From assembly GCF_900104945.1 (NCBI RefSeq), contig NZ_LT629736.1, positions 3,127,001 through 3,191,000 of the forward strand: 64,000 nucleotides of DNA, read 5' to 3'. The translations under genes were made by a program, and so were the position numbers. Below are positions 41,741 through 58,665 of the stretch, in pieces. The notes under the pieces are model-generated. The model had not been told where the DNA came from. It saw only the letters and a list, made by a program, of their open reading frames with translations, and made no database searches. Positions within the stretch are counted from its first letter, which is position 1. Each line of letters begins with the position of its first letter. Source of the stretch: Halopseudomonas xinjiangensis (GTDB lineage Bacteria > Pseudomonadota > Gammaproteobacteria > Pseudomonadales > Pseudomonadaceae).

Positions 41741-41769
41741 TTAGTTGCTTCTCCTTGCGTGCCGGCAGC

Positions 41770-41869: not shown

Positions 41870-41959
41870 ACTGCTATAGAGCTGCCGAGTGTCTGCCCCG
41901 CCGCCCTCACCCATCAGTGCGCACAAGGCGGCGTTGATCCCGCACGGTTTCTTGCAGGC

Positions 41960-42063: not shown

Positions 42064-42087
42064 GGCGCTCGCACGGCTACCGAAAGA

Positions 42088-43020: not shown

Positions 43021-43958
43021 GGTAAGCGTCCCGTGGCGGTCGGAGCGGAGTTGATCGGATCATCAGAAGGCAGCGGCAGGCGCGCCCAGATCTGCGATAG
43101 CGTCAGCCCGCTGACCAGATGCCAGACGCCCCAGAAGGCAGTGATCAGCATCATGCCGCCTGCCTCCGGAAAGAACGTGAACATGATGACCAGTCCCAGG
43201 CCGGAATTCTGAATGCCGACTTCCATGGTGACTGCGCGCCGATCGCTGACCGGCAACTTGAGCAGCTTGCCCATGGCGTAGCCCAGCGCCAGAGCCAGTA
43301 GATTGTGAGCCACCACCAGCCAGAAGAAGCTGTGAAAGCGCTCGACGAACAGATCCAGATTCTTCGAGAAGGCGATGGCCACGAAGCCGAGGAATACCAG
43401 AAGCGAGACGATGCGTAGCGGCTTCTCGCTGCGACTGACCAGCGCCGGGAAGCGGCGACCGGTGAGCATGCCCAATGCCAGCGGCAGGGCGAGCACCAGC
43501 AATACCAGCAGCAGAATCCCGCCTGGCTCCAGAGTGATCTCGGTCAGATAGCTGCGTGTGTACGGGTTGAGCCAGCCATACAGCGCAAAATTAAGCGGAG
43601 TGAGAACGGTTGCCGCCAGGCTCGACACCGCTGTCATGCTGACCGATACCGCAACATTGCCACGCGCCAGCCAGGTCATGATGTTGGAGAAGCTGCCGCC
43701 CGGGCAGGCGGCCACCAGAATCATGCCCAGCGCCAGTTCCGGATCGATGCGCATGGCCCAGGTGAACAGACAGGTGGCTAATGGCAGCAGCAGAAACTGT
43801 GCAACCAGACCGGCCAGTGGCGCGATGGGCGCCAGCGCGATGCGCTTGAAGTCTTCCAGCCGGAGGCTCAGCGACACGCCGAACATCATGCAGGCCATGA
43901 TGAGGTTCAGCAGGATCAGGCTGGCCGGGTCGAATTCGAGCGGCAGGGCCCCGCTCAT
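43017..43958 (-). CDS. Bile acid:sodium symporter (BASS) family transporter
   Basis: A 313-residue membrane protein with about ten segments. The BASS pattern is seen as LILVAACPGGSFSNIMTWLARGNVAVS and TMEVGIQNSGLGLVIMF (sodium-site helices), shown in part. Substrates in this family include bile acids, organic acids and vitamins. Coupled by 4-base overlaps to the FMO gene upstream and the epimerase gene downstream. Confidence 0.88.
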   Translation of the reverse strand: MSGALPLEFDPASLILLNLIMACMMFGVSLSLRLEDFKRIALAPIAPLAGLVAQFLLLPLATCLFTWAMRIDPELALGMILVAACPGGSFSNIMTWLARGNVAVSVSMTAVSSLAATVLTPLNFALYGWLNPYTRSYLTEITLEPGGILLLVLLVLALPLALGMLTGRRFPALVSRSEKPLRIVSLLVFLGFVAIAFSKNLDLFVERFHSFFWLVVAHNLLALALGYAMGKLLKLPVSDRRAVTMEVGIQNSGLGLVIMFTFFPEAGGMMLITAFWGVWHLVSGLTLSQIWARLPLPSDDPINSAPTATGRLP

Positions 43959-45280: not shown

Positions 45281-45380
45281 GGATGCGTTTCTCCGCTGGC
45301 TTGTTGTTATGATCACACTCTAAGCCAACGCAGCAATTCGGTATCGCACCGAACAGGACACGGGACCGGCAATTCAGGCC

Positions 45381-46361
45381 ATGCACGACTGCGCCGAACA
45401 CAGCGTCACTCCACGTTACAGCCAGGCCATTCTGCAGATGGCCGAGCGGTTGGGCATCGTTCTGCCCGATGGTCTTGACCGACGCCTGCAGGGCATCCAG
45501 CGAGTCCCGATCGGCTGGCAGGACGAGCTGTGGGAAGCCTTTTGTCAGGCCAGTGGGGACCCGCTGATCGGGCTTCGGCTGGGTTTGGAAATCCAGGTCG
45601 GCCATCTCGACAGCCTCGGCATGCTGCTGGTCACCTGCGAGACGTTCGGCGAAGCGCTGGAAGAACTGATCGAATACGCTCCGGTCATCGGCGATGGCGG
45701 GGAATTTCGGCTGCATCGGGACGGGCCCCAGGCGTTCATCGATTATCAGCCGCACCTGAGCGTACGCCGTGCGGAGCGGGTCGAGGCGGTGCTCGGCAGC
45801 ATGCTCAACCTGAGCCGCTGGGCGACCGGCAATCGCTTTCAGCCCAGCGGCATGTGGCTGGCGCATGCTCCGCTAGCCGAGCCCGCGCGCTATGAAGCGC
45901 TGGTCGGCTGTCGCGTACATTTCAACGCCGGATGCAACCATCTGGGCTTTACTGCCGGCCAGTTGGAGCTGCACCAGATCCAGGCCAACGGCGCTCTGCG
46001 CGACCATCTGCGGAGGCTGGCCGACCAGACGCTGGCGGAACTCGGCCACCAGAGCCTGAGCGCCGACGTGCAGCGCCTGGTCACGGCTCATCCAAGCTGG
46101 GGCAAGGAGCGCATCGCCGAGCAGTTGCACCTCAGCGGTCGTCATCTTAACCGACGCCTTGCCGAAGATGGTCTGTCGTTCAAAACCCTGCGCGAGAGCG
46201 TCCTGCAAGCCATGGCCTGCCAGGCGCTGCAGGGTAACCAGCGCGTGGCGGATATCGCCGAGCAACTCGGATTCTCTGATGAAAACGCCTTCATCCGCGC
46301 CTTCCGTCGCTGGCAGGGCATGACGCCTGCGCGGTTTCGGTCAGCTCCCACTTCCAGCTAA
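45381..46361 (+). CDS. AraC-family transcriptional regulator
   Basis: A 326-residue regulator with an N-terminal arabinose-binding-like domain (about 20-205) and a C-terminal pair of helix-turn-helix motifs (about 225-320), ending in VADIAEQLGFSDENAFIRAFRRWQGMTPARFR, quoted in part as GFSDENAFIRAFRRW. This domain layout is common beside monooxygenase and lipid or aromatic catabolic genes. It is divergent from the FMO operon (100-base gap), its likely target. Confidence 0.92.
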   Translation: MHDCAEHSVTPRYSQAILQMAERLGIVLPDGLDRRLQGIQRVPIGWQDELWEAFCQASGDPLIGLRLGLEIQVGHLDSLGMLLVTCETFGEALEELIEYAPVIGDGGEFRLHRDGPQAFIDYQPHLSVRRAERVEAVLGSMLNLSRWATGNRFQPSGMWLAHAPLAEPARYEALVGCRVHFNAGCNHLGFTAGQLELHQIQANGALRDHLRRLADQTLAELGHQSLSADVQRLVTAHPSWGKERIAEQLHLSGRHLNRRLAEDGLSFKTLRESVLQAMACQALQGNQRVADIAEQLGFSDENAFIRAFRRWQGMTPARFRSAPTSS

Positions 46362-46615
46362 CGCTGCGGCATAGCGACTGGCATCCGAGCGGCGACTGCT
46401 TCCACTGGTTCTACTTGTTCTAAGTCTCCCGAGCGCCGCTGCGCCCCGCTGGAACGCCCGCACTGACCGCGCACCAAAGCCGAGCGTATCGGATCATCGC
46501 TGCCGCCTCGATCACCTTTCCCTGCTCCGATTCTTTCTCCTTGAAAAACAGCCTGATACCCCGACTGGTGCGGCTTTTGGCATAGCCGATGCAACAGCTA
46601 TGACAGGCGTTATGA

Positions 46616-46629
46616 CCTGTTAATACAAG
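46616..46629. promoter_or_regulatory. Candidate GntR operator 1, before the ABC binding-protein gene
   Basis: CCTGT-TAAT-ACAAG is an imperfect palindrome with the GT-N4-AC core used by HutC/UTRA-type GntR regulators. It lies 25 bases upstream of the ATG of the binding-protein gene, where it could block the promoter. Two related sites lie at 49943 and 54122. Confidence 0.5.
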
Positions 46630-46654
46630 TTGACCAACCGGCAAGGTGAAGACA

Positions 46655-48025
46655 ATGAATAACCGAAGAGGCCTGATTGCTCTCGCGCTGTGCGGCACCG
46701 TGTCACTGTTCGGCGGCAAGGCCGCTGCCGAGACCATCCAGATCGGCATCGGCCACCAGAGCATGGTGACCAATACCGTTTCCGGGGGCGTGATTCTGGA
46801 GAAGCTCAACCTTCTCCACAAGCACCTCCCTGCCACCGGCAAGTATGCCGATGTCGACTACAAGATCATCTTCCGCGACTACGACTCGGGCCCGCCGATT
46901 ACCAATCAGATGCTCGCTGGCAAGCTCGAGTTTGGCGTCATGGGCGACTACCCACTGATCGTCAACGGCGCCAAGTTCCAGGAAACCGGCAAGCAGCAGA
47001 CGCGGTTCATTGCCGTGACCGGCTACAACCTCAAGGGTACCGGTAACGGCATCGTGGTGCCCTATGACTCCCCGGTCCAGTCGCTGGCCGATCTGGCCGG
47101 CAAGACCATCTCCACCCCGGTGGGTAGCGCTGCCTGGGGCATGACGCTCAAGGCACTGAGCGACGCCGGGCTGTCCGACAAGGTCAAGCTGGTCAACCAG
47201 GCCCCGCCGATCGGCGCGGCGAACATCGCTGCCAACCGCATCGATGCCCATGCTGATTTCTGTCCCTGGTCGGAAATGATGGAGTTTCGCGGTACCGCCC
47301 GGAAGATCTACGACGGCAGCGAGGCCGAGGTGCCGACCTTCCACGGCATCGTCGTACGCGAATCGTTTGCCAGGCAGTACCCGGAAGTGGTCGACGCGGT
47401 ATTGACCGCGACCATCGAGGCCCAGCAGTGGATTCAGAAGGATCCGATGCAGGCGGCGATGCGCGTGTCTGAGTGGACCGGCGTCGAGAAGGAGGTGCTC
47501 TACCTCTACTTCAGCAACGGCGGCATTTCCACCATGGAAGCCAGCATCAAGCCGGAGTGGGTCGAGGCGCTGAAATACGACCACGCCCTGCTGCAAAAGG
47601 AAATGCAGATTCCCGATCTCGACTTCAACGCCTGGGTCGACGCCAGCTACCTCAAGCGCGCTTACCAGAGCGCCGGCCTGGATTACGACGCGCTGGTCGC
47701 CACTGTCGTGAGCCCTACGCCGAACAATCCACAGCTCAATCCCGCGGAAATGTGGGTCGACGGCCAAGGGATCGTCAGCTTCGACAGCATTGCCGAGATG
47801 CTTGCCGCCGAGAAGACAGCCATGGCCAAGGGCACCCTGGTCACCGCCACCTATGTCTACGACAACCGCACCGGACTGAAGCTGTTCGGCAAGGCTGCCT
47901 ACATGGTGCAGGCGCCGAGCGGGGAAGTACTGGCCTTCATGAAGAAGGCCGATTCGGACAGCCACATCGCCGAGTTCGGCGGTACCGCGCTGGTTCCCGG
48001 CAAAGCCGTGGCGATGTTGCCCTGA
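46655..48025 (+). CDS. ABC transporter substrate-binding protein with C-terminal NosL-like domain
   Basis: A 456-residue exported protein. Residues 1-25 are a signal peptide ending AAA. Residues about 27-340 form a NrtA/SsuA/TauA-type binding domain (IGHQSMVTNTVSGGVILEKL, GPPITNQMLAGKLEFGVMGDYPL). The last 91 residues (from base 47750) are extra: GIVSFDSIAEML, then YDNRTGLKLFGKAAYMV and a G-EVLAF-x-ADSDSHIAEFGG pattern like NosL, a copper-binding lipoprotein family. AAGG precedes the ATG at 46655; a GTG at 46646 is the alternative. The ligand is an unknown small molecule, probably an anion. Confidence 0.88.
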   Translation: MNNRRGLIALALCGTVSLFGGKAAAETIQIGIGHQSMVTNTVSGGVILEKLNLLHKHLPATGKYADVDYKIIFRDYDSGPPITNQMLAGKLEFGVMGDYPLIVNGAKFQETGKQQTRFIAVTGYNLKGTGNGIVVPYDSPVQSLADLAGKTISTPVGSAAWGMTLKALSDAGLSDKVKLVNQAPPIGAANIAANRIDAHADFCPWSEMMEFRGTARKIYDGSEAEVPTFHGIVVRESFARQYPEVVDAVLTATIEAQQWIQKDPMQAAMRVSEWTGVEKEVLYLYFSNGGISTMEASIKPEWVEALKYDHALLQKEMQIPDLDFNAWVDASYLKRAYQSAGLDYDALVATVVSPTPNNPQLNPAEMWVDGQGIVSFDSIAEMLAAEKTAMAKGTLVTATYVYDNRTGLKLFGKAAYMVQAPSGEVLAFMKKADSDSHIAEFGGTALVPGKAVAMLP

Positions 48026-48080
48026 CTATTACGCCACGGACCCAAGTCGTCCGGGGCAGCCTGCTGAAGGAGCTGTAGCT

Positions 48081-49022
48081 ATGACCATGAAATCGAACGT
48101 AGCGGTTGCCGAGCCGGTGGTTGCCCCGGCTCCGGCTCCGGCCGAAAGGGGTCCCGGTGCTCCGGCACTGGATGCCACCAGCCAAATGGAACATCACGAC
48201 ACGCCACCAGCCGCACCGGCACCGGCCGCCCTGCGTCATGCCACGCTGGAAAAGGCGCGCCGTTACGCAGTGCGGACCGCGGCGCTGATCATGGCGGTGG
48301 TGATCTGGCACCTGGCCTCGACCAATGACTTCAACCTCTTCGTTAACTTCGAGCACGTGCCGGAGCCGCTCACGGTTGGCGAGGCGTTCCTGGCCGAACT
48401 GACCGGTAGCGAGTTCTACCTGCACATCGCCCATAGCATGCAGCGCATCGCTATCGCTTACGGGCTGGCTGTGGTGCTGGGCGTGACCCTGGGCGTGCTG
48501 ATGGGCCGCTCGAAGTGGGCCGAAGACATCATCCTGCCGTATATCGAACTGCTCCGGCCGATCCCGGCAGTGGCCTGGATTCCTCTTGCGATCCTGATGT
48601 TGCCGAGCGAGCAGTCGAGCATCGTCTTCATCACCTTCCTCGGCGCGCTATTCCCGGTGGTGCTCAACACCGTACACGGCGTCGAGCAGACCAATGGTGT
48701 GCTGGTCAGGGCGGCGCGCTGCCTCGGGGCAAGCAACTCGGCGATTCTCTGGCACGTGATCATCCCCGGCGCCATGCCCAGCATCGTCACCGGTCTGGCG
48801 GTGGGCATGGGTGTGGCCTGGTTCTCGCTGCTGGCTGGCGAAATCATCAGCGGCCAGTACGGCATCGGCTACTTCACCTGGACCTCGTACACGCTGATCC
48901 AGTACCCGCAGATCATCATCGGCATGCTCACCATCGGCCTGCTCGGCACCCTCAGCACCCTGCTGGTCCGCCTGGCCTGCAGCCCACTGCTGCGCTGGCA
49001 GCCAAAAGGAGCACGCGCATGA
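48081..49022 (+). CDS. ABC transporter permease (NitT/TauT type)
   Basis: Inner-membrane permease of 313 residues with six predicted helices after an unusual 60-residue Pro/Ala-rich cytoplasmic leader (EPVVAPAPAPAERG). The coupling EAA-loop is RAARCLGASNSAILWHVIIPGA, here quoted across its length only as RCLGASNSAILWHVIIPG. Nitrate, sulfonate and taurine importers share this fold. Its stop overlaps the ATPase start (ATGA). Confidence 0.92.
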   Translation: MTMKSNVAVAEPVVAPAPAPAERGPGAPALDATSQMEHHDTPPAAPAPAALRHATLEKARRYAVRTAALIMAVVIWHLASTNDFNLFVNFEHVPEPLTVGEAFLAELTGSEFYLHIAHSMQRIAIAYGLAVVLGVTLGVLMGRSKWAEDIILPYIELLRPIPAVAWIPLAILMLPSEQSSIVFITFLGALFPVVLNTVHGVEQTNGVLVRAARCLGASNSAILWHVIIPGAMPSIVTGLAVGMGVAWFSLLAGEIISGQYGIGYFTWTSYTLIQYPQIIIGMLTIGLLGTLSTLLVRLACSPLLRWQPKGARA

Positions 49023-49897
49023 AAACCGCTACCCCGACCGATAGCCGTCTGGCCGTGCTCGATCACAGCCGCCTGAAAAGCCGTACCACACAGAGCGTCG
49101 AAGGCCGCGGCAACATCAGCGTACGCAACGTCGATATCGAGTTCGCCGTTAACGGCAGCCGCAATGTTGCGGTACAGCAAGCCAATCTGGAGATTCGATC
49201 GGGCGAGTTCGTCTGCCTGCTCGGCCCTTCCGGCTGCGGCAAGTCGACCCTGCTCAATGCCATCGCCGGCTTCGTCAATCCGACCCGCGGCGAACTGACC
49301 GTGGATGGCAAGGCCGTGACCGAGCCCGGCCCGGACCGCGGCATGGTGTTCCAGCAGCACTCGCTGTTTCCCTGGAAGAGCGTGCACGACAACGTCGCCT
49401 TCGGCCCGCTGATGGCCGGCGCCAGCCGCGCCGAGGCCAGCAGCGTGGCGCGCACCTTCCTCTCGCTGGTGGGCCTGGCCGCATTTGCCGATGCCTATCC
49501 GACCAACCTCTCGGGCGGCATGCAGCAGCGTGTCGGCATTGCCCGGGCGCTGGCCAACTACCCCAGCGTGCTCCTCATGGACGAGCCCTTCGGCGCCCTG
49601 GATGCGCAGACGCGAATCATGATGCAGGAGAACCTGCTGGAGATCTGGCGCGAGTTTCGCAACACCGTGGTGTTCGTCACCCATGACATCGACGAGGCGG
49701 TGTTTCTCTCCGATCGCATTGTGGTCATGAGCGCCAGCCCCGGACGGATCATCGCCGATATCCCGGTGAAGCTGCCGCGCCCGCGCGATCAGTCGCTGCT
49801 GACCAGCCCCGAGTTCATGGTGCTCAAGCGCCAGTGCCTGGAACTGATCCGTCAGGAAACCCTGAACGCCTTCAAGCAGCAGAACCGGACGGGCTGA
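49019..49897 (+). CDS. ABC transporter ATPase (NitT/TauT type)
   Basis: ATPase of 292 residues. Walker A GPSGCGKST, Q-loop VFQQHSLFPWKSV, signature LSGGMQQRVGIARAL, Walker B VLLMDEPFGALD and switch VTHDIDEA match SsuB/TauB/NrtD. A leader of about 35 residues precedes the domain. I chose ATG 49019 for its ATGA overlap with the permease; a much longer frame upstream is a shadow. Completes a three-part importer with the two genes before it. Confidence 0.94.
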   Translation: MKTATPTDSRLAVLDHSRLKSRTTQSVEGRGNISVRNVDIEFAVNGSRNVAVQQANLEIRSGEFVCLLGPSGCGKSTLLNAIAGFVNPTRGELTVDGKAVTEPGPDRGMVFQQHSLFPWKSVHDNVAFGPLMAGASRAEASSVARTFLSLVGLAAFADAYPTNLSGGMQQRVGIARALANYPSVLLMDEPFGALDAQTRIMMQENLLEIWREFRNTVVFVTHDIDEAVFLSDRIVVMSASPGRIIADIPVKLPRPRDQSLLTSPEFMVLKRQCLELIRQETLNAFKQQNRTG

Positions 49898-49942
49898 ACC
49901 ATGCGCATCCAACGGCTCTTTTTCCTTTCGCTCGACATGACA

Positions 49943-49952
49943 TGTCATGACA
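49943..49952. promoter_or_regulatory. Candidate GntR operator 2, at the GntR gene start
   Basis: TGTCATGACA is a perfect palindrome with the GT-N4-AC core, overlapped by a second 12-base palindrome ATGACATGTCAT (49937-49948). It lies 15 bases before the GntR ATG at 49968, which suits autorepression. The same TGTCATGAC core recurs at 54121. Confidence 0.6.
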
Positions 49953-49967
49953 ACCGGAGTGGCCGCC

Positions 49968-50711
49968 ATGAATGGAATTGATCAGTTCGCGCCGGGCCAA
50001 TCGCCGCTGCCGCTGTACGTACAAATCCGCGACAGCCTGCGCCGGAAGATTCTCGAAGGCAGTTATGCGATCCACGAGCGGCTGCCCTCGGAAAACGAAA
50101 TGATGGTCGCCTTCGGCGTCAGTCGGATCACCATCCGACAGGCACTGCGCGACCTGCATAACGAAGGGCTGGTGTTCAGCGCCCAGGGCAAAGGCACCTA
50201 CGTCAGCAAGCCCAAGGCGGTGCAGAACGTCCAGCGCCTGCAAGGCTTCGGCGAAGCGATGGCCGCCCAGGGCTATGAGGCGACGGCGCGGCTGCTGAGC
50301 ATTCGCGAATGCAAGCCGGCCAAGGCGGTTGCCGCTGCGCTGCACACGCACTCCGGCGAAGACGTGGTCGAGGTCAAGCGTGTGCGCTACCTCAACCGTG
50401 AGGCGGTGTGCCTGGAAAGCAGCTACTTCCCGCTGGATATCGGTCGCCCGCTGTTTTCCCGCGATCTTTCCGGCGACATTTTTCCGCTACTGGAGAACCT
50501 TTTCGGCATCCCGCTCGGGCATGCCGAGATCGGCCTGGACGCCACCCTGGCCGATGACGAAACCCAGGACCTGCTTGGCCTGAAAGTCGGCGAGGCGATC
50601 CTGCGCGTGGAGCGCCTGACCCATAACCGCAGCGGTCGGCCGATCGACTTCGAATACCTCTGTTACCGCGGTGACTCATTCAAATACCAATTCCGAGTGG
50701 ATCGGAAATAG
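49968..50711 (+). CDS. GntR-family repressor with UTRA domain
   Basis: A 247-residue regulator. The winged helix (about 12-80) has PLYVQIRDSLRRKILEG, LPSENEMMVAFGVSRITIRQ (helix-turn-helix) and GKGTYVSKP; a UTRA effector-binding domain (about 95-240) follows with VKRVRYLNREAVCLESSYFP. HutC-subfamily members respond to small ligands of the pathway they control. I chose ATG 49968 because GGAG lies 8 bases upstream and the earlier ATG at 49947 sits inside the palindrome. It stands between the importer and the flavoprotein gene, and probably represses both. Confidence 0.92.
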   Translation: MNGIDQFAPGQSPLPLYVQIRDSLRRKILEGSYAIHERLPSENEMMVAFGVSRITIRQALRDLHNEGLVFSAQGKGTYVSKPKAVQNVQRLQGFGEAMAAQGYEATARLLSIRECKPAKAVAAALHTHSGEDVVEVKRVRYLNREAVCLESSYFPLDIGRPLFSRDLSGDIFPLLENLFGIPLGHAEIGLDATLADDETQDLLGLKVGEAILRVERLTHNRSGRPIDFEYLCYRGDSFKYQFRVDRK

Positions 50712-50721
50712 GAGATTAGCC

Positions 50722-52461
50722 ATGACTACAACCATCAACGACATCCCCGTTATCGATACCGACGTGCTGGTGATCGGCGGCGGTACCGCCGGTCCAATGG
50801 CCGCCGTGACCGTCAAGGAGCAGGACCCTTCGTTGAAGGTAATCCTGCTGGAAAAGGCCAACGTCAAGCGCTCCGGCGCCATCTCCATGGGCATGGATGG
50901 CCTCAATAACGCCGTGGTTCCCGGGCACGCGACGCCCGAGCAGTACGTCAAGGAGATCACCATTGCCAACGACGGCGTCGTTCACCAGCCGGCAATCATG
51001 GCCTACGCGCAGCGCTCATTCCCGATGATCGAAAAGCTCGACTCCTGGGGCGTGCATTTCCAGAAGGACGAGACCGGCGACTACGACATGAAAAAGGTGC
51101 ACCACCTGGGCACTTACGTACTGCCGATGCCGGAAGGCCACAACGTCAAGAAGATCCTCTATCGCCGGCTGCGCCGAGTGCGGGTGGAAATCGAGAACCG
51201 CTTCCAGGCGACTCGCCTGCTCAAGGACTCGGACGGCAACATCGCCGGCATGATCGGGGTGAATACCCGGACCGCCGAGCCGATCATCATCCGCGCCAAG
51301 GCGGTGATCATGGCCACCGGAGCTGCCGGCCGTATTGGTCTGCCGAACTCCGGCTACCTGTTCGGCACCTACGAAAATCCAGCCAACTGCGGCGACGGCC
51401 ATGCCATGGCCTACCACGTCGGCGCGGACCTGGTGAATCTGGAATGCTTCCAAGTCAACCCGCTGCTCAAGGATTACAACGGCCCGGCCTGCGCCTACGT
51501 CACCGGCCCGCTCGGCGGCTTTACCGCCAACGCCTACGGCGAACGCTTCATCGAGTGCGACTACTGGTCCGGCCAGATGATGCTGGAGTTCTTCAAGGAG
51601 CTGGAATCCGGCACGGGCCCGGTGTTCCTCAAGCTCGACCACCTGGCCGAGGAAACCATTCAGGAAATCGAGACCGTTCTGCACACCAACGAGCGTCCGA
51701 CCCGCGGACGCTTCCATGACGGGCGCAAGGTCGACTACCGCCAGCGCATGGTCGAGATGCACATCTCGGAGATCGGCTTCTGCTCCGGCCACTCGGCTTC
51801 CGGCGTATGGACCGACGAGAACGGCGCCACCACCGTGCCCGGTCTCTACGGCGCCGGTGACATGGCCTCGGTAGCGCACAACTATATGCTCGGCGCCTTC
51901 GTCTACGGGCAGATCTGCGGTGAAAACGCCGCGCAGTTTGCCAAGAATCGCAGCGAGCCGGTGCTCGATGAAGCCTTCATTGTCGCCGAGCTGGCGCGTA
52001 TCCAGGCACCGCTGAAGGTCAAGGACGGCATTCCGCCCGAGCAGATGGAATACAAGGTGCGCCGCCTGGTGAACGACTATTTGCAGCCGCCGAAGGTCAC
52101 CAAGAAGATGGAGATTGGCCTGGAGCGCATTCTCGCCGTGCGCGAGGACCTGCCGCTGCTCTCGGCCGCCGACCCCCACGAACTGCTGCGCGCGCTCGAA
52201 GTGCAATCGATCATCGACTGCGCCGAGATGGCTGCGCGTGCCTCGCTGTACCGCACCGAGTCGCGCTGGGGCCTGTACCACTACCGTGTCGACTATCCCG
52301 AGCAGAACGATGCCGAGTGGTTCTACCACAGCCGCCTGTTCAAGGACGAGAACGGCAACATGGCCAGCGGCAAGCGGCCGATTGCCGACTACATCGTCCC
52401 GCTCGGTGAAGAGAAGGACGCTTACAACAAGTTGCGCGTGAAGAAAGCGGCCAACGCCTGA
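50722..52461 (+). CDS. AprA-like FAD flavoprotein (adenylylsulfate reductase alpha/fumarate reductase family)
   Basis: A 579-residue cytoplasmic flavoprotein. The FAD loop is VLVIGGGTAGPMAA, followed by LLEKANVKRSGAISMGMDGL, which tracks AprA (EKA.V.RSGA..MG) closely. Further blocks are IMATGAAGRIG, CGDGHAMAYHVGADLVNLE and LYGAGDMASVAHNYMLGAF. The C-terminal YHYRVDYPEQNDAEWFYHS also resembles AprA. True APS reductase needs ATP sulfurylase and AprM or Qmo, none of which is here, so I call it a paralogue with an unknown substrate. GGAGATTAGC precedes the ATG. The AprB-like ferredoxin follows. Confidence 0.9.
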   Translation: MTTTINDIPVIDTDVLVIGGGTAGPMAAVTVKEQDPSLKVILLEKANVKRSGAISMGMDGLNNAVVPGHATPEQYVKEITIANDGVVHQPAIMAYAQRSFPMIEKLDSWGVHFQKDETGDYDMKKVHHLGTYVLPMPEGHNVKKILYRRLRRVRVEIENRFQATRLLKDSDGNIAGMIGVNTRTAEPIIIRAKAVIMATGAAGRIGLPNSGYLFGTYENPANCGDGHAMAYHVGADLVNLECFQVNPLLKDYNGPACAYVTGPLGGFTANAYGERFIECDYWSGQMMLEFFKELESGTGPVFLKLDHLAEETIQEIETVLHTNERPTRGRFHDGRKVDYRQRMVEMHISEIGFCSGHSASGVWTDENGATTVPGLYGAGDMASVAHNYMLGAFVYGQICGENAAQFAKNRSEPVLDEAFIVAELARIQAPLKVKDGIPPEQMEYKVRRLVNDYLQPPKVTKKMEIGLERILAVREDLPLLSAADPHELLRALEVQSIIDCAEMAARASLYRTESRWGLYHYRVDYPEQNDAEWFYHSRLFKDENGNMASGKRPIADYIVPLGEEKDAYNKLRVKKAANA

Positions 52462-52523
52462 TAACGGATGGTTGCCCGCCGCGGCGCGCAGCCATCCTCC
52501 GAAGCCTTGATGAGGAAAAGACC

Positions 52524-52757
52524 ATGCCAATCAGCAACCATCGCTCCAGCGTCCCGGTCATCGTGGACGAAGAAAAATGCATCGCCGACAAGGGCTGCCG
52601 CGTCTGCATCGACGTCTGTCCACTCGACGTCCTGTGGATCAACGAAGACACCGGCAAGGCGCACATGAAGTACGACGAATGCTGGTACTGCATGCCCTGT
52701 GAGGCCGACTGCCCCACCGATGCAGTGAAAGTGAACATCCCGTATCTGCTGCGCTGA
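52524..52757 (+). CDS. Short 2x[4Fe-4S] ferredoxin, AprB-like
   Basis: A 77-residue ferredoxin. Cys19, 25, 28 and 32 give the spacing C-x5-C-x2-C-x3-C-P, and Cys53, 56, 59 and 63 give C-x2-C-x2-C-x3-C-P. The long first spacing and ECWYCMPCEADCP resemble the ferredoxin segment of AprB, but the C-terminal tail that wraps AprA is missing. It follows the AprA-like gene by 62 bases and is most likely its electron-transfer subunit. Confidence 0.92.
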   Translation: MPISNHRSSVPVIVDEEKCIADKGCRVCIDVCPLDVLWINEDTGKAHMKYDECWYCMPCEADCPTDAVKVNIPYLLR

Positions 52758-52767
52758 GGAGCTGCCC

Positions 52768-53727
52768 ATGAAGACCTATGACGACCCGATGCTGCAGGAA
52801 ATCGCCGAAAACCTGGCATCAAGCGACCCGGGCATTCGCCGGGTAGCGGTGCTCGAGCTGGTCGATTGCGGCGAGCCGGAGGCTGCGGAGCTGCTGATCC
52901 TGGCACTCAACGATCCCGACCCGGCCGTCCGCCAGGAGGCGGCCAAGGTGGTCGACGAGTTCGATGCCGTGGATATCGCCGATGCATTGATTGCCGCGTT
53001 GGGCGACAGCAACGAAGTGGTACGCAACTCGGCTGCGCATGCGCTGGCTGACCTCAAGGATCCGGCCGCCGCCGGCCCGCTGCTCGAAGCACTGGATAAC
53101 AGCAGCGATTCCTTCGTCATGGCCGGCATCCTGCGAGCGGTCAAGCCGCTGCGCAATCCCGCCTCGCAGGCGCCGGCGCTAGGGTGCCTGAACCACGAGG
53201 ACCCTCAGGTCCGCCGCGAGGCGGTAGGGGTGATCGGCTGGCTCAAGCAGACCGAGAACCTGCCGGCGCTGATCGAGCGCGCCCAGCACGACAGCGACGC
53301 CGAGGTCCGCCGCGCCGCGACCGGTGCGCTGGTGTACGCCAGCGGTGATCAGGTCGGCCCGACGCTGGTCGGCCTGCTCGGTGACGAGCACTGGCAGGTG
53401 CGCGTGGAGGCGGCGGTGAGCATTGGCAAGCTGGATTACCAGGCCGGTCTGCAGCCGCTGATGGACGCCACCCGCGACAGCTTCTGGCAGGTTCGCGAAA
53501 AGGCCGTGGACTCGCTGGGCAAGCTGGGCTCGGTGGGCGCCATCCCGGTCCTCGGTACTTGCGCCCGTGACCCGATGAGCAATCTGCGCAAGGCAGCCAT
53601 CGGCGCGCTGGGCAGTATCGGCCACCGCGACGGCCGGCCATTCGTCGAGAGCGCCCTGGATGATCCGGACCCGGACGTGCGCAAGCTGGCGCGTTGGGCC
53701 ATGTCCAAGCTCGAAGCGGCCGCCTGA
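52768..53727 (+). CDS. HEAT-repeat protein
   Basis: A 319-residue alpha-solenoid of roughly ten HEAT/PBS-lyase-like repeats, each about 30 residues, with the recurring pattern D(P)xxxVRxxAxxAL (examples NDPDPAVRQEAAKVV, EDPQVRREAVGVIG, DDPDPDVRKLARWAM). No catalytic residues are visible. It begins 10 bases after the ferredoxin stop, so it is probably made with the flavoprotein-ferredoxin pair and may scaffold or chaperone it. Confidence 0.9.
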   Translation: MKTYDDPMLQEIAENLASSDPGIRRVAVLELVDCGEPEAAELLILALNDPDPAVRQEAAKVVDEFDAVDIADALIAALGDSNEVVRNSAAHALADLKDPAAAGPLLEALDNSSDSFVMAGILRAVKPLRNPASQAPALGCLNHEDPQVRREAVGVIGWLKQTENLPALIERAQHDSDAEVRRAATGALVYASGDQVGPTLVGLLGDEHWQVRVEAAVSIGKLDYQAGLQPLMDATRDSFWQVREKAVDSLGKLGSVGAIPVLGTCARDPMSNLRKAAIGALGSIGHRDGRPFVESALDDPDPDVRKLARWAMSKLEAAA

Positions 53728-53782
53728 GTCTGCTGCCCGGTGCACGGCGCCGGGCAATCTCAACCAGCAGGAGAACCATGCC

Positions 53783-54106
53783 ATGACCTTTGTGGTGACC
53801 GAAAACTGTATTCGTTGCAAATACACCGACTGCGTCGATGTGTGTCCGGCCGATTGCTTTCACGAGGGGCCGAACTTCCTGGTGATTAACCCGGAAACCT
53901 GTATCGACTGCAGCCTGTGCGTACAGGAATGTCCGGCCGACGCGATTTACGCCGATACCGACGTACCACCGGACCAGACCCATTTCATCGAGCTCAACGC
54001 CGAGTTGGCCCAGCTGTGGCCGGTGATTGCCGCAGCCAGTGAGCCCATGGCCGAAGCCGATATGTGGATAGACCAGGGTGACAAGCTGCAGTTTCTGGAA
54101 CGTTGA
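53783..54106 (+). CDS. fdxA: Seven-iron ferredoxin
   Basis: A 107-residue [3Fe-4S][4Fe-4S] ferredoxin. By comparison with Azotobacter FdI, Cys9, 17 and 50 should hold the 3Fe cluster and Cys21, 40, 43 and 46 the 4Fe cluster; Cys12 and Cys25 are extra. TFVVTENCIRCKYTDCVDVC is the family N-terminus, so the start is 53783. Likely electron carrier between the ferredoxin-NADP reductase encoded downstream and the flavoprotein complex. Confidence 0.96.
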   Translation: MTFVVTENCIRCKYTDCVDVCPADCFHEGPNFLVINPETCIDCSLCVQECPADAIYADTDVPPDQTHFIELNAELAQLWPVIAAASEPMAEADMWIDQGDKLQFLER

Positions 54107-54115
54107 GGCATGTCC

Positions 54116-54135
54116 CAACTTGTCATGACGAGTTG
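54116..54135. promoter_or_regulatory. Candidate GntR operator 3, long palindrome after fdxA
   Basis: CAACTTGTCATGACGAGTTG is a 20-base inverted repeat perfect except for one base pair, with TGTCATGAC identical to the site at the GntR gene start and CAACTTGT also found inverted at the first site (ACAAGTTG). It begins 10 bases after the fdxA stop and could control the DUF971-YeiH-FNR-Mrp half of the cluster. Confidence 0.58.
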
Positions 54136-54138
54136 GCT

Positions 54139-54275
54139 GAGACACACGCTGGTGGCTGCTGGTTGTCGGCGCCATCAGCGAAAGCGCTCGCCCGGTGCTG
54201 CTTGACGAGCGACAGCTGCGTCTCGCTGAAGCCCCGGCGCTGGTACTACCCAAGCGCAAGGCCAACCAGGCCTGA
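54139..54275 (+). pseudogene. Possible 3' remnant of a deleted gene
   Basis: The frame from just after the palindrome to the TGA at 54275 reads RWWLLVVGAISESARP, then LLDERQLRLAEAPALVLPKR and ends KANQA. It has Pseudomonas-like codon use but no start codon, and a stop (TGA 54136-54138) lies immediately upstream. It looks like the tail of a lost gene; I do not recognise the family. A short ATG frame from 54109 (31 codons) is less protein-like. Confidence 0.4.
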
Positions 54276-54284
54276 GGAGTCAAC

Positions 54285-54647
54285 ATGACCCGTCCGATGT
54301 TCATCGAAGCGCCGCAGGAAGTGCGGCTGAGAAAGCGTGAGAACCGCCTCGAGGTGCTCTGGGCGGATGGTCAGCGCACCAGCCTGAGCGGCCTGATGCT
54401 GCGCAGATCCTGCGCCTGCTCATTCTGCGTCCAGGCGCAGCAGACCGGCGCGCTGACCGTGATCGATGCCGACGTCGGCGTCGCCCGGCTGGAGGTCAAT
54501 GGCGTCAGCGGCCTGCAGTTTCACTTTACCGACGGCCACTATAAGGGCCTCTATCCGTGGGGTTACCTGCGTGAGCTCAGCGATCAACTGGGCGAGCCGG
54601 TCGCAGATCCTCAGCCTGCCGGTCTCCAGGCGGAGCGCTGCGCATGA
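54285..54647 (+). CDS. DUF971 (GBBH-like N-terminal) domain protein
   Basis: A 120-residue protein consisting of one DUF971 domain (LEVLWADGQRTSLSGLMLRR, CACSFC). The Cys cluster in RRSCACSFC is typical of the family and can bind metal. In plant HCF101 a DUF971 domain is fused behind a MIP18-P-loop Fe-S carrier; here the two are separate genes of the same cluster. GAGGAG lies before the ATG. Its stop overlaps the YeiH gene by 4 bases. Confidence 0.9.
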   Translation: MTRPMFIEAPQEVRLRKRENRLEVLWADGQRTSLSGLMLRRSCACSFCVQAQQTGALTVIDADVGVARLEVNGVSGLQFHFTDGHYKGLYPWGYLRELSDQLGEPVADPQPAGLQAERCA

Positions 54648-55651
54648 CCGAGCGCGCCCAGCCCCGCGACCTGTTGCTTTGGGCGGCCGTTCGACGGCTG
54701 TACCCAGGGCTGGCGCTATGCGCGGTGCTGGCGCTCGCCGGGAGTTTCCTGGCTGAGCATTACGGCACGCCGGCGCTGTTGCTGGTGTTGCTGCTCGGCT
54801 TCGGTTTTGCCAGCCAGGGCCAGGATGTCCGGCTGCAGCCGGGAGTAACGTTCTGCAGCCGACAGGTGCTGCGCATCGGTGTGGCGTTGCTCGGAGCGCG
54901 CATGGGCGTCGAGCAGGTGCTGGCCGTCGGCAGTCTGCCCTTGCTGATGGTGTTGAGCTGTGTGCCCTTGACCATCGGCACAGCGCTGCTGCTCGGTCAC
55001 TGGCTGGGGCTGCCAAGTATGCAAAGTCTGGTGGCGGGTGTGGCGGTAGCCATCTGCGGCGTATCGGCGGCGATCGCGGTGGCAGCGGTGATCCCCGCCG
55101 GCCGGCTGGAAGAACGCCGGCTGCTGGCGGTGGTGGTCGGCGTGACCGCCATGGGTACGCTGGCAATGCTTGCCTACCCGCCGCTGTTGGTCGCCATGGG
55201 TTACACCGACGTTCAGGCCGGGCTCCTGCTGGGCGCGAGCATCCATGACGTGGCGCAGGCGGCTGGAGCCGGCTATCTGGTCTCGGACGCGGCCGGCGAT
55301 GTGGCGACGCTGACCAAGCTGCTGCGCGTGGCCTTGCTCGCCCCACTGGTGATCCTGCTCGGCCTGATCCTGCGCCGCGGCGAAGGCGGCAAGACCGAAT
55401 TTCCCTGGTTTCTCATAGGTTTTCTTGCATTGTTCTGCGCCAACAGTCTCGGCTGGTTGCCTGAGGCGTTGAAACAGATGCTGGTGTCCGCATCGGCGGC
55501 GTGTCTACTGGCGACCATGGCTGCGCTGGGCATGCGCACGTCGCTCGGGGCTCTGCTGGCCCAGGGCTGGAGACCCATGATGCTGATTTTTGTAATGAGC
55601 CTGCTGCTGATGGCCTTTGCCACTGGTTCGCTGGCGCTGTTTTCCCTTTGA
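54644..55651 (+). CDS. YeiH-family putative sulfate/anion exporter
   Basis: A 335-residue membrane protein (about ten segments) of the YeiH/PSE family. FCSRQVLRIGVALLGARMG and GASIHDVAQAAGAGYLVSDAA are hallmark blocks. Relatives next to sulfonate-degrading genes (TauZ-type) are proposed to export sulfate; direct proof is scarce. Coupled to the DUF971 gene. In this cluster it may remove the oxyanion product. Confidence 0.88.
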   Translation: MTERAQPRDLLLWAAVRRLYPGLALCAVLALAGSFLAEHYGTPALLLVLLLGFGFASQGQDVRLQPGVTFCSRQVLRIGVALLGARMGVEQVLAVGSLPLLMVLSCVPLTIGTALLLGHWLGLPSMQSLVAGVAVAICGVSAAIAVAAVIPAGRLEERRLLAVVVGVTAMGTLAMLAYPPLLVAMGYTDVQAGLLLGASIHDVAQAAGAGYLVSDAAGDVATLTKLLRVALLAPLVILLGLILRRGEGGKTEFPWFLIGFLALFCANSLGWLPEALKQMLVSASAACLLATMAALGMRTSLGALLAQGWRPMMLIFVMSLLLMAFATGSLALFSL

Positions 55652-55677
55652 CCTTGTAATTCGTTAAGGAGGCCATC

Positions 55678-56454
55678 ATGGCTGCGATCGGTACGGAAAA
55701 TGTTCTGAGCGTTCACCACTGGAACGACACGCTGTTCAGCTTCAAGACCACGCGGGACCAGAGCCTGCGCTTCGAAAACGGGCACTTCGTGATGATCGGC
55801 CTGCCGGTCGAGGGCAAGCCGCTGATGCGCGCCTACAGCATTGTCAGCGCCAATCATGACGAGTATCTGGAATTTCTCAGCATCAAGGTGCCGGACGGCC
55901 CGCTGACCTCGCGGCTGCAACACCTGAAGGAAGGCGATTCCATTTATGTCAGCCGTAAGCCGGTCGGTACGCTGGTGATGAATGATCTGCGCCCGGGAAA
56001 GCACCTTTACCTGTTCGGCACAGGCACCGGTCTGGCGCCTTTCATGAGCATCGTGCGCGATCCGGAGGCTTACGAGCGCTTCGAAAAGATCGTACTGGTG
56101 CACTGCGTGCGCCAGGTTAGTGAACTGGCCTACCACGACTATCTGACCCGGGAGCTGACGGAGCACGAATTCCTCGGCGACGAGGTGCGCGAGAAGCTGA
56201 CCTATTACCCCACCGTGACCCGCGAGCCGTTCCGCAACACAGGCCGCATCACTACCCTGGTGGGGACCGGCAGGCTGGCCGCGGACATCGGCCTGTCGCA
56301 GCTCAACCCGGAGACCGACCGCGTGATGCTCTGTGGCAGCCCGGCGATGCTCGAAGAGCTCACCGGCATGCTCGACGGCATGGGCTTTGCAGCGTCAGCT
56401 GAACAGGGCGACCCGGGTGATTACGTGATCGAGCGGGCGTTCGTCGAAAAGTGA
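55678..56454 (+). CDS. fpr: Ferredoxin-NADP+ reductase
   Basis: FAD enzyme of 258 residues that exchanges electrons between NADPH and ferredoxin. RAYSIVSANHDEYLEF is the FAD motif (RxYS), LFGTGTGLAPFMSI binds NADP, and the C-terminal FVEK matches the Pseudomonas Fpr ending. It is a second-site, cluster-linked reductase able to reduce FdxA. AAGGAGG precedes the ATG. Confidence 0.95.
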   Translation: MAAIGTENVLSVHHWNDTLFSFKTTRDQSLRFENGHFVMIGLPVEGKPLMRAYSIVSANHDEYLEFLSIKVPDGPLTSRLQHLKEGDSIYVSRKPVGTLVMNDLRPGKHLYLFGTGTGLAPFMSIVRDPEAYERFEKIVLVHCVRQVSELAYHDYLTRELTEHEFLGDEVREKLTYYPTVTREPFRNTGRITTLVGTGRLAADIGLSQLNPETDRVMLCGSPAMLEELTGMLDGMGFAASAEQGDPGDYVIERAFVEK

Positions 56455-56505
56455 AATCAGGCTGATCTGTTACCGCCCGGCTGCGGCCGGGCATGGGAGC
56501 CAAGC

Positions 56506-57606
56506 ATGTCCGAACCCGCACTGAAGATAGTACCCAATGAATTGTCCCGGCAGGCCGAGGCTGCGCTCGGCCAATGGATCGACCCGATCATCGGTTGTGA
56601 TCTGATCAGCGCCGGGGCGGTGATCAAGCTGGAGGCATTTACCTTCCGGCTGTATATCGACCTGCACCTGGGCTTCCCGGCCGATCACTATGGCCCGCAA
56701 CTGCGCAACGAGTTGGAGCGCTACCTGCTGGCCAATACCCAGGCCAAGGTGGTCGAAGTCAACGTGACCTGGTCGGTAAGCGCGGCGCCGCTGACCGCCC
56801 AGACCTTGCCGGCGATCAAACATCTGATCGCCGTTGCCTCGGGCAAGGGCGGTGTCGGCAAATCCACCACCGCGACCAACCTGGCGCTGGCGCTGGCCGC
56901 GCAAGGCGCGCGGGTGGGCATGCTCGATGCCGATCTCTACGGCCCCAGCCAGCCGCGCATGCTGGGCCTGTCGGAGCTGCCCGACACCGTCGATGGCAAG
57001 CTGCAGCCATTGGTGGGCCACGGCATTCAGACCATGTCGATCGGTTTTCTGGTCGACGAGGAGCAGCCGATCATCTGGCGCGGCCCGATGATCACCCAGG
57101 CATTGACGCGCCTGCTCAACGAGACCGAGTGGCAGGACCTGGATTACCTGATCGTCGATATGCCGCCGGGCACCGGCGACATACACATGACCCTGGCGCA
57201 GAAGATGCCGGTATCCGGTGCGGTGATCGTCACCACGCCGCAGGACATCGCCCTGCTCGACGCGCGCAAGGGTCTGAAGATGTTCGACAAGGTGAATATT
57301 CCCGTCCTCGGCATCATCGAGAACATGAGTACTCATGTTTGCAGTAACTGTGGGCACGAGGAACACATCTTCGGCGCGGGTGGTGCGCAGCGCATGGCTG
57401 AGGAGCATGACAGCGAGCTGCTCGGCGAACTGCCGCTGGATATCCGGATTCGCAGCGGTGCGGATGATGGCGAGCCGATCGTCGCGAGCGACCCGCAGGG
57501 CGAGCTGGCCGTCGCCTACGGCGATATTGCGCTGCGCGCGGCGGCGCGGGTGTGGCTACAGAGTCGCGTGCGGCAGCAGACGGTACCGACCATCGTCGTC
57601 GAGTAA
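56506..57606 (+). CDS. Mrp/ApbC-family Fe-S cluster carrier ATPase
   Basis: A 366-residue protein with an N-terminal MIP18/DUF59-like domain (about 12-92) and a P-loop NTPase whose deviant Walker A is GKGGVGKST (113-121). VDMPPGTGDIHMTLAQ is the next NTPase block, and CSNC near residue 280 is the CxxC that binds a bridging [4Fe-4S] cluster. It probably matures the Fe-S proteins of this cluster. A housekeeping apbC is normally elsewhere in Pseudomonas, so this looks like a dedicated copy (inference). Convergent with the AbrB gene. Confidence 0.93.
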   Translation: MSEPALKIVPNELSRQAEAALGQWIDPIIGCDLISAGAVIKLEAFTFRLYIDLHLGFPADHYGPQLRNELERYLLANTQAKVVEVNVTWSVSAAPLTAQTLPAIKHLIAVASGKGGVGKSTTATNLALALAAQGARVGMLDADLYGPSQPRMLGLSELPDTVDGKLQPLVGHGIQTMSIGFLVDEEQPIIWRGPMITQALTRLLNETEWQDLDYLIVDMPPGTGDIHMTLAQKMPVSGAVIVTTPQDIALLDARKGLKMFDKVNIPVLGIIENMSTHVCSNCGHEEHIFGAGGAQRMAEEHDSELLGELPLDIRIRSGADDGEPIVASDPQGELAVAYGDIALRAAARVWLQSRVRQQTVPTIVVE

Positions 57607-57633: not shown

Positions 57634-58665
57634 TCAGGCCAGTCGCGACCAGGCCCGATAGAGTGGTTCGGCGAGAAACATGACCAGGAACAGCCGCAAT
57701 ACCTGTAGGGCCGTGACCAGCGCCACCGACAGGTGCAGGGCCTCGGCGGTCAGGCAGAGCTCGGTAATGCCGCCGGGCATCATGCCCAGCATGAGGCTGG
57801 CATCGTCGACCTTCGCACCCAGGCTGAGCAGCTCCGCGAGAGCCGCTGCCACCAGCATCGCGGTTAGGGTAAACAGCAGCACGCGAAGCAAAAAGGCCGG
57901 AGCGCTACGGAAAAATGCCCGGTCGAAATGACAGCCGAGCGCGCAGCCGATCAGCCACTGGCCGGCCTCCCCGGCACCGGCCGGCAGTTCGAGATCGAGG
58001 TCGAACACGATGCTCGCGGCGCTGCAGATGATCAGAGGGCCGAGCATCCAGGGGTTGGGCTGGCCCAGGCGCCGCCAGACCAGCGCCAGCAGGCCGCCAA
58101 GCGGCATGAGCAACGCCAGCCACCGCCAGTCGACCTCGCCGCCCTGAGCTGGCTCGGCTGTCGGCAGACCCCAGGTGAACAGCGCTGGAACGATCAGCAC
58201 CACGAGCAACAGTCGAAGGCTGTGCGCCGCGACGACCATCGCCGGCTGCGCCTGGTGGCGGGTCGAGAGCACGGCCATCTCGCTGGCGCCGCCGGGCATG
58301 CTGGCGAACCAGGCGGTGGCACGGTCCACGCCGCTGCGGCGCAGAATGGCGATGCCGATCAGACTGAGCAATGCGGTGCCGCACGCACCCAGAACGACGA
58401 CCCACAAATGGCTGAGCATCTGTGCGAACACCGGCGCGGTAAAGTGCAGCCCAATGGCGCTGGCAACGATCCATTGTCCCGCTTGGCGCCCGCCGGGCAG
58501 CGGAACCAGCAGCCAGCCGCAGCAACGCACGGCGATCACTGACAAGAGTGATCCGACCATATACGGCAACGGCCAGTCAGCGATACTTGCCAACCAGCCG
58601 CCGATCAGTCCTACCACAGGCGTGGACCACATCCGCATGTGGTCCAGCCGGCTTGCTTCAGGCAT
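57634..58665 (-). CDS. AbrB-family membrane protein
   Basis: A 343-residue membrane protein of the AbrB/COG3180 family (about ten segments in two repeats), with WFASMPGGASEMAVLS and MLGMMPGGITELCLTAEAL as the duplicated P-G-G motifs. It starts eight bases inside the end of tctA and so is translated with the tricarboxylate transporter. Function unknown; the name AbrB is from a family label and has nothing to do with the Bacillus regulator. Confidence 0.87.
   Translation of the reverse strand: MPEASRLDHMRMWSTPVVGLIGGWLASIADWPLPYMVGSLLSVIAVRCCGWLLVPLPGGRQAGQWIVASAIGLHFTAPVFAQMLSHLWVVVLGACGTALLSLIGIAILRRSGVDRATAWFASMPGGASEMAVLSTRHQAQPAMVVAAHSLRLLLVVLIVPALFTWGLPTAEPAQGGEVDWRWLALLMPLGGLLALVWRRLGQPNPWMLGPLIICSAASIVFDLDLELPAGAGEAGQWLIGCALGCHFDRAFFRSAPAFLLRVLLFTLTAMLVAAALAELLSLGAKVDDASLMLGMMPGGITELCLTAEALHLSVALVTALQVLRLFLVMFLAEPLYRAWSRLA

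Follow-up and report, generated by a model that had tools for sequence, protein, structure and literature searches.

A conserved AprA-like flavoprotein operon with a predicted nitrogen-type promoter in part of its family: a probable, unrecognised route of nitrogen scavenging

The nitrogenase-like isethionate reductase IsrHDK of Rhodobacter capsulatus releases sulfite, and growth requires an Ssu-type importer, according to the sections of its report that deal with these genes (PMC11423573). The acesulfame clusters of Bosea and Chelatococcus, as outlined in part of their description, combine an anion importer and a TauE/SafE exporter with enzymes for N-S compounds (PMC10413263). For the adenosine 5'-phosphosulfate (APS) reductase subunit AprA, excerpts of a structural account state that the conserved Gln145 clashes with 3'-phosphoadenosine 5'-phosphosulfate (PAPS) and that Trp42 is a likely electron-transfer residue (PMC10322725). 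Here, we describe a twelve-gene operon in a window of 64,000 nucleotides from Halopseudomonas xinjiangensis (contig NZ_LT629736.1, positions 3,127,001 to 3,191,000; the 3.54-Mb genome is one contig). The operon encodes an AprA-like flavoprotein, referred to as FLAV, together with a small ferredoxin (FdB), a HEAT-repeat protein, an ATP-binding cassette (ABC) importer, and a putative anion exporter. Nitrogen-starvation DNA signals at the block indicate that it is probably an unrecognised route of nitrogen scavenging. The new and strongest finding is the nitrogen-type promoter, which is predicted from the DNA sequence and is confined to part of the family. Three elements were found upstream of the operon in the window:

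46578..46593, + strand: predicted sigma54 -24/-12 promoter TGGCATAGCCGATGCA, 2 mismatches to the consensus used
46471..46485, + strand: predicted NtrC-type enhancer GCACCAAAGCCGAGC, of the form GCAC-N7-GNGC, 107 bp upstream of the -24 element, 1 mismatch
46413..46422, + strand: conserved ACTTGTTCTA element, from the footprint of 31 gammaproteobacterial upstream regions

The gammaproteobacterial footprint contained a shared -24/-12 element and, in many regions, GCACCA-N5-GRGC about 107 bp further upstream; the position of the NtrC-type enhancer is the same in most gammaproteobacterial loci with the gene order of the window. Many Thiobacillus-type loci and Halothiobacillus carry exact sites of the NtrC-type consensus GCAC-N7-GTGC, which was calibrated on the data of the present analysis. 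The ACTTGTTCTA element, which has a degenerate second copy at 46405, is a possible GntR operator.

We scored these sites in a comparison set of 102 loci, all chosen for encoding FLAV, from which three duplicates had been removed. A sigma54 site was allowed at most 2 mismatches and an NtrC core at most 1, and only genes preceded by a gap of 120 bp or more were considered. Among operon-type genes, 66 of 231 had a sigma54 site, and 50 of these 66 also had an NtrC core (13 exact); for the other genes of the same loci, the corresponding values were 43 of 459 and 6 of 43 (0 exact). The promoter pair was present in 45 of the 102 loci: 30 of 34 named gammaproteobacterial loci that share the gene order of the window, 14 of 18 loci from Thiobacillus, Halothiobacillus, Sulfuriferula, and metagenome-assembled genomes (MAGs), and also the locus L048. 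A longer NtrC template with 7-base arms and a spacer of 4 to 5 was too strict, matching 20 of 63 at up to 4 mismatches versus 9.25 in shuffles and 3 versus 1.15 at up to 3 mismatches.

Searches of whole genomes linked the same type of site to nitrogen genes. A pattern built from the window's site gave five matches in the host genome, versus 2 for the same pattern read backwards as a control. One was the operon itself; the other four lay 49 to 225 bp before genes for allophanate hydrolase, a TauC-like permease, nirB, and glnA; the permease, with UAAP1 downstream, is a urea-amidolyase-associated transporter. A pattern built from the gammaproteobacterial site had 8 matches in six genomes (control, 0), 5 of them at the operon (in Halomonas, before the permease), and the remaining three preceded a nirB-like gene with a nitrate reductase gene downstream, an ABC binding protein gene, and a porin-like gene, all named by eye. 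Both site-built patterns were designed to match the site of the operon itself; their independent result is what they match elsewhere. The exact-consensus pattern had a single match in Thiobacillus and another in Halothiobacillus, each at the operon, and no match in the four gammaproteobacterial genomes among the six searched (control, 0).

Cyanobacteria carry a different candidate signal. The motif GTATCT..ATTTAC, a candidate NtcA core (consensus, GTA-N8-TAC), lies at -73 to -75 of the substrate-binding protein gene in a pair of Pseudanabaena plasmids and a Leptolyngbya plasmid. It was thus found in three of four cyanobacterial plasmids, two of which are near-identical, and not upstream in the Nostoc plasmid; the chance of its occurring in both genera was 0.012 by shuffling, and 1 of 14 other genes had it.

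The genes of the operon are as follows:

46646..48025, + strand: substrate-binding protein (SBP), SsuA/TauA-like, with a C-terminal NosL-like domain (profile and Foldseek; NosL in homologues only)
48081..49022, + strand: ABC importer permease, Ssu/Tau/Sao type (domain search)
49019..49897, + strand: ABC importer ATPase, Ntr/Ssu/Sao type (domain search)
49947..50711, + strand: GntR/UTRA regulator (domain search)
50722..52461, + strand: flavoprotein FLAV, PRK08275 family (NF006131, 1030 bits; cut-off 587)
52524..52757, + strand: FdB, 77-amino-acid AprB-like 2x[4Fe-4S] ferredoxin (profile; conserved eight Cys and Trp54)
52768..53727, + strand: HEAT-repeat protein (matches the C-terminal part of NF010374, E 3e-31)
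53783..54106, + strand: ferredoxin FdxA (NF045490, 157 bits; cut-off 135)
54285..54647, + strand: DUF971 (GBBH-like_N) protein (PF06155)
54644..55651, + strand: YeiH-type putative sulfate exporter (PF03601, 214 bits; TIGR00698, 132.6 bits, under its 232.6 cut-off)
55678..56454, + strand: ferredoxin-NADP reductase, Fpr (NF008178, 149 bits, under that model's 390 cut-off)
56506..57606, + strand: Mrp/ApbC Fe-S carrier (NF008669, 403 bits; cut-off 348)

The original prediction, made from the sequence of the window, had described twelve same-strand genes with overlaps or short gaps, and all 12 are present on the + strand over 46646-57606. Neighbours overlap or sit at most 178 bp apart, the widest gap being that from FdxA to DUF971, and domain searches agree with the families assigned. 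A longer GTG start of FLAV is possible at 50671. The DUF971 protein keeps Cys43/45/48 at 90% or more across homologues, and a second Mrp, 52% identical to that of the operon, is encoded elsewhere in the host genome. The proposed NosL tail of the SBP needs correction, as Pfam does not detect it in the window protein. With PF05573 (gathering score 24), 2 of 7 homologous tails passed (30.7 and 32.7), 3 were below, and 2 gave no match, the window SBP's own tail among them.

FLAV is a patchy trait. Proteins above the PRK08275 cut-off were encoded in 5 of 58 genomes in a search of relatives (4 of them among 37 congeners, the host genome included) and in 21 of 398 in a phylum sample. Where FLAV occurs, its neighbours are retained, although taxon sampling of the loci is uneven. 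Conservation of the neighbours had been set beforehand as the test of whether the genes form a unit, and FLAV, FdB, and HEAT occur together in 102 of 102 loci. Other genes were counted by tblastn in the 83 full-length loci, since our home-made gene caller misses genes, the window ATPase included. The full set of SBP, permease, and ATPase is found in 75 of the 83, DUF971 in 77, the importer trio plus DUF971 in 70, and GntR in 67, followed by FdxA (46), Fpr (38), YeiH (26), and Mrp (16). The core is FLAV, FdB, and HEAT, usually with the importer and DUF971; FdxA, Fpr, YeiH, and Mrp are accessory. The earlier inclusion of Mrp and YeiH in the block therefore holds for some versions and was overstated for the family. 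Flavoprotein identity to the window protein is 64 to 73% in other proteobacterial lineages and 55 to 61% in cyanobacteria and actinobacteria, and recurrence of the gene set at such identities across classes and phyla argues against a chance neighbourhood.

Arrangements vary with lineage. Plasmids of Pseudanabaena and Leptolyngbya have the importer genes and FLAV-ferredoxin-HEAT-Mrp, then YeiH and TauE/SafE; the Nostoc version is looser. FLAV and HEAT are a single 893-amino-acid gene in Tsukamurella and lie within one 993-amino-acid open frame in Nonomuraea, and GntR, FdB, and importer genes adjoin the fusion in both actinobacteria. A Crp-type regulator gene is present in 16 loci, mostly alphaproteobacterial. 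Six Pseudomonadaceae loci (L051-L056) have the Burkholderia-like order GntR-FLAV-FdB-SBP-permease-ATPase-HEAT-DUF971 and are without the NtrC/sigma54 pair, as if the operon had entered Pseudomonadaceae at least twice. In Acidithiobacillus caldus (L156), it resides on the 65-kb mobilizable plasmid pTcM1, with an ISL3-like transposase gene breaking the binding-protein region. The cyanobacterial loci L169, L170, and L183 carry a gene for an unusually long LysR-type regulator (about 670 amino acids) on the opposite strand just upstream of FLAV. In the Nostoc plasmid (L168), HAD, methyltransferase, GNAT, and VOC genes lie between FLAV and the ferredoxin, and GNAT and amidase genes follow Mrp; in Methylocystis (L159), GNAT follows HEAT, and an amidase gene comes next on the other strand.

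In a profile search of the PDB, FLAV matches the PAPS reductase alpha subunit 8a8o best (E 5e-77), followed by AprA 2fja (E 7e-57) and succinate dehydrogenase (SDH). FLAV scores 157 bits against the curated aprA model, under the 641.75 cut-off. In a tree of 45 proteins, 29 of them FLAV rows, with a long-branch warning for 8a8o and NadB, AprA and 8a8o form a group (100/99) that contains no FLAV, SDH and NadB form a separate group (100/100), and a 100/100 branch divides SDH and NadB from FLAV, AprA, and PAPS reductase. The FLAV rows lie together on one side of a 78/90 branch, which is neither rejected nor firmly shown. The active site, for which we assume the residue roles of AprA (2fja numbering), including a substrate-site role for Arg265 and His398 as the label of the active-site His, is both related and altered. 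AprA Asn74 corresponds to Asn62 of FLAV and the active-site His to His357, both invariant across the FLAV alignment. Arg265 is replaced by Leu248, invariant in 42 sequences, and 6 residues are inserted in the FLAV loop corresponding to that of AprA Glu141/Gln145. Five cysteines (242, 257, 279, 354, and 500) are kept at 99 to 100% in the FLAV set, with Cys279 changed to Ser in Tsukamurella. The AlphaFold model was weak (predicted local distance difference test [pLDDT], 71; active-site stretches, <50) and was not used.

These features bear on two readings of FLAV from known families. One takes FLAV for a genuine AprAB-type enzyme, either an APS/PAPS reductase or a sulfite dehydrogenase, for which the nearest solved relative and the AprB-type clusters and Trp retained in FdB could be cited. 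This appears very improbable from the loss of Arg265, the insertion in the Glu141/Gln145 loop, and the position of FLAV outside the AprA/PAPS reductase group; moreover, APS needs no ABC importer, and aprA is encoded in only 6 of the 42 genomes searched, so FLAV is not dependent on it. The other is that FLAV is the flavoprotein of a fumarate reductase (FRD) or SDH, as its public name and its Pfam domains, FAD_binding_2 and Succ_DH_flav_C, would have it. We give this next to no credence: the active-site loops of SDH/FRD, namely the RDvva stretch and HGANRLGGNSLL, are either missing from FLAV or replaced, and the 100/100 branch separates it from SDH and NadB. Both readings were rejected on active-site residues and tree position. 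The expectation that the flavoprotein would group outside families of known function held for the two groups compared, AprA/PAPS reductase and SDH/NadB, and the family is apparently misnamed, its public name being contradicted by the active site.

The importer points to the type of substrate. The predicted SBP structure is good (pLDDT, 88.5), and Foldseek places TauA and SsuA first, with NrtA and CmpA lower in the list. By PDB profile, only four chains pass E 1e-5, all of TauA/SsuA type (TauA, E 3e-24); one is labelled "Nitrate transport protein" yet titled SsuA. The SBP scores 114.7 bits against the curated SsuA family, under the 163.5 cut-off. These matches uphold the sulfonate-type importer of the original prediction. 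The substrate might instead be a nitrogenous anion that has no sulfonyl group, such as thiocyanate, cyanate, or a nitro compound, with the exporters carrying something else. The Ntr/Ssu importer family also carries nitrate and cyanate, several host genera are presumably thiocyanate users, and the nitrogen-type promoter and the lower-ranking NrtA and CmpA matches would fit. We judge this idea improbable, given that the PDB profile matches are solely TauA/SsuA-type and that the linked transporters, which come from three families with no relation to one another, carry sulfite or sulfate annotations.

Linkage to one of these three families, YeiH, TauE/SafE, or SulP, bears out the putative anion exporter. 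YeiH, which is linked to sulfate export, neighbours FLAV in 33 of the 100 loci in which a FLAV gene was called; counting by tblastn gives 32 of 102. We rejected the view that it is an extra of near kin only, as it is also found in Pelomonas, Methylobacterium, and cyanobacteria. TauE/SafE is found in L144 (same strand), Aquabacterium, and cyanobacteria; it also follows Rnf in L105 and L136, outside our "near" rule, and the L119 copy is eight genes upstream on the other strand. Weak TauE-like matches lie far from FLAV in L139 and in the window. SulP is near FLAV in L048 and L097 and far in L050. In marine gammaproteobacteria (L048, L094, L097, and L099; partly L093, L096, and L137), genes for SCO1, a PCu(A)C copper chaperone, and cytochrome c are inside the operon, as is the gene of an unknown membrane protein in some such loci. 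Together with the NosL-like SBP tail, the copper-type genes hint at copper.

Ferredoxin-type proteins are a recurrent part of the operon, in line with the electron supply originally proposed. In FdB, the eight Cys and Trp54 are conserved at 95% or more in 100 sequences. Rnf genes follow FdxA in three gammaproteobacterial MAG loci (L105, L119, and L136; Pfam on representatives), and FdxA and Fpr are found in other FLAV loci. The cyanobacterial blocks have no annotated FdxA or Fpr; there, photosynthetic ferredoxin could feed FLAV. Three kinds of ferredoxin-type electron suppliers suggest a reductive reaction. A multidomain flavin adenine dinucleotide (FAD)/Fe-S oxidoreductase of about 1190 amino acids (cluster c14) is linked in ten loci (L102, L103, L108, L109, L110, L114, L118, L123, L131, and L146), where it possibly replaces Fpr.

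An oxidative alternative is that FLAV deaminates an aminosulfonate of the taurine type to obtain its nitrogen. Electrons would then leave via FdB, FdxA, and either Fpr or Rnf, and what remains of the sulfonate after deamination would be exported. IsfE/SafE systems export deaminated sulfonates, and the nitrogen-type promoter, the TauA-like SBP, and the TauE/SafE and YeiH linkages are all compatible with such a scheme. Isethionate is a by-product of taurine nitrogen assimilation, as stated in a portion of PMC6616044. Still, we consider deamination unlikely, because the three kinds of suppliers point to reduction and an amine dehydrogenase would have no obvious need for two ferredoxins and Rnf.

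Taken together, the nitrogen-type promoter, the TauA-like importer, the AprAB-like enzyme fed by ferredoxin, and the transporters of sulfur oxyanions fit nitrogen scavenging with reductive sulfite release. We give about an even chance to a nitrogen-starvation operon that scavenges nitrogen from a small anion containing both nitrogen and oxidised sulfur, sulfonate- or sulfamate-like. Low nitrogen, acting through NtrC and sigma54, would switch the operon on, at least in the loci with both elements, and the TauA/SsuA-like SBP and its importer would take up the anion. Fpr and FdxA, or elsewhere Rnf or photosynthetic ferredoxin, would supply low-potential electrons via FdB to the FAD of the AprA-like subunit, of which HEAT is a constant partner in the operon architecture. 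The enzyme would split the substrate reductively into a nitrogen compound and sulfite, and YeiH or TauE/SafE (SulP in two loci), linked in a minority of loci, would move the sulfur oxyanion, presumably outward. DUF971 and Mrp may load the Fe-S clusters, with an HCF101-type pairing as the model. The original prediction had favoured a sulfur pathway and named nitrogen only in brackets; the unforeseen NtrC/sigma54-type promoter shifts the balance towards that alternative.

A bolder and tentative candidate, which we rate as rather unlikely, is that FLAV-FdB-HEAT is a ferredoxin-dependent reductase of the N-S bond in sulfamate or an N-sulfonate (H2N-SO3- + 2 e- -> ammonia + sulfite) by an AprA-like flavin-sulfite route, through which bacteria of at least three phyla would gain nitrogen and export sulfite. 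Among the literature matches listed, none described an enzyme using sulfamate as a nitrogen source. Two accounts weigh against sulfamate in the parts that mention it: sulfamic acid has been proposed as a conservative wastewater tracer (PMC5292994), and degraders of acesulfame leave it unused (PMC10413263). In either setting, however, repression by nitrogen could keep such a pathway silent.

Several observations count against the nitrogen-scavenging reading. The promoter pair is absent from 57 of the 102 loci, including all 23 from named Burkholderiales, all six Pseudomonadaceae of the other gene order (L051-L056), all six from named alphaproteobacteria, and all 11 further loci from another class, and a convincing GlnR site was not found in Tsukamurella. 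The positive loci are often close relatives, so that the counts are not independent, and GCAC-N7-GTGC was chosen after the footprint had been viewed. Fpr is able to run in either direction, and the change from Arg265 to Leu248 means that flavin-sulfite chemistry is not assured. About two thirds of the loci have none of the three exporter families nearby; by the "near" rule, TauE is near in 2 loci, one of them (L119) on the other strand, and far in 4. In addition, LLM monooxygenases, Ssu transporters, 3-mercaptopropionate dioxygenase, and rhodanese are encoded beside some plasmid copies. This last point, the loci that lack the promoter, a metX/OAH sulfhydrylase/YeeE island in Nostoc, and the resemblance of the SBP to TauA/SsuA would suit the main rival, a sulfur-source system in which the importer takes up an organosulfonate or another organosulfur anion and FLAV-FdB frees sulfite for assimilation under sulfur starvation. 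We regard that role as doubtful, because NtrC/sigma54-type promoters like those at glnA and nirB speak for nitrogen and a linked sulfur-oxyanion exporter makes little sense under sulfur limitation.

No paper on this gene set was recognised among the literature matches listed. Papers on nitrogen starvation and sigma54 in Paraburkholderia phymatum include sulfur genes, to which FLAV could not be tied in the excerpts concerned (PMC5748707, PMC5979394), and nothing bearing on the gene block was found in the available part of PMC3325844. Beside the operon, a - strand cluster at 40221-46361 encodes a weakly TauE-like permease (home-made model only), an SDR, an epimerase-like protein, a BASS-family transporter, and a flavin monooxygenase; it is adjoined by an AraC-type regulator (45381-46361, + strand) and may concern another organic acid. 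Directly downstream, at 57634-60178 on the other strand, are genes for an AbrB-duplication membrane protein and a 506-amino-acid protein that looks like TctA by eye and has no NCBIfam match.

If nitrogen scavenging is correct, a highly conserved and apparently misnamed enzyme family would gain a testable role, at least in those lineages that carry the promoter pair. Bacteria that are plant-associated, marine, or sulfur-oxidising would have a nitrogen source that is invisible to current annotation and sometimes plasmid-borne, and a further reaction type would stand beside the AprA/PAPS reductase group. The plausible substrates are a short list of small N-S anions, which makes the question answerable.

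Several known systems are close to the operon. The SBP has TauA and SsuA as its top structural and sequence matches; unlike SsuABC/TauABC, it has a C-terminal tail that is NosL-like in homologues, and the block has no SsuD or TauD. In the account at hand, the acesulfame clusters differ in relying on hydrolases and in leaving sulfamate as unused waste (PMC10413263). IsrHDK, as far as its description extends, is nitrogenase-like and serves as a sulfur source system in which an FAD oxidoreductase gene is dispensable for growth; its likeness lies in reductive sulfite release from a small sulfonate, as proposed for FLAV, with an Ssu-type importer (PMC11423573). FLAV fits NF006131 (PRK08275), and NF010374 (PRK13800) spans the FLAV-HEAT fusion, both being sequence models only. 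With the PAPS reductase of Methanothermococcus thermolithotrophicus (8a8o) and AprAB, it shares the alpha-subunit fold family, C-terminal motifs, a small 2x[4Fe-4S] beta subunit with a Trp beside a cluster, and the counterparts of Asn74 and the active-site His in Asn62 and His357. Unlike them, the FLAV system has Leu248 in place of Arg265, the 6-residue insertion, five unshared conserved Cys, a constant HEAT partner, an ABC importer, and a predicted nitrogen-type promoter.

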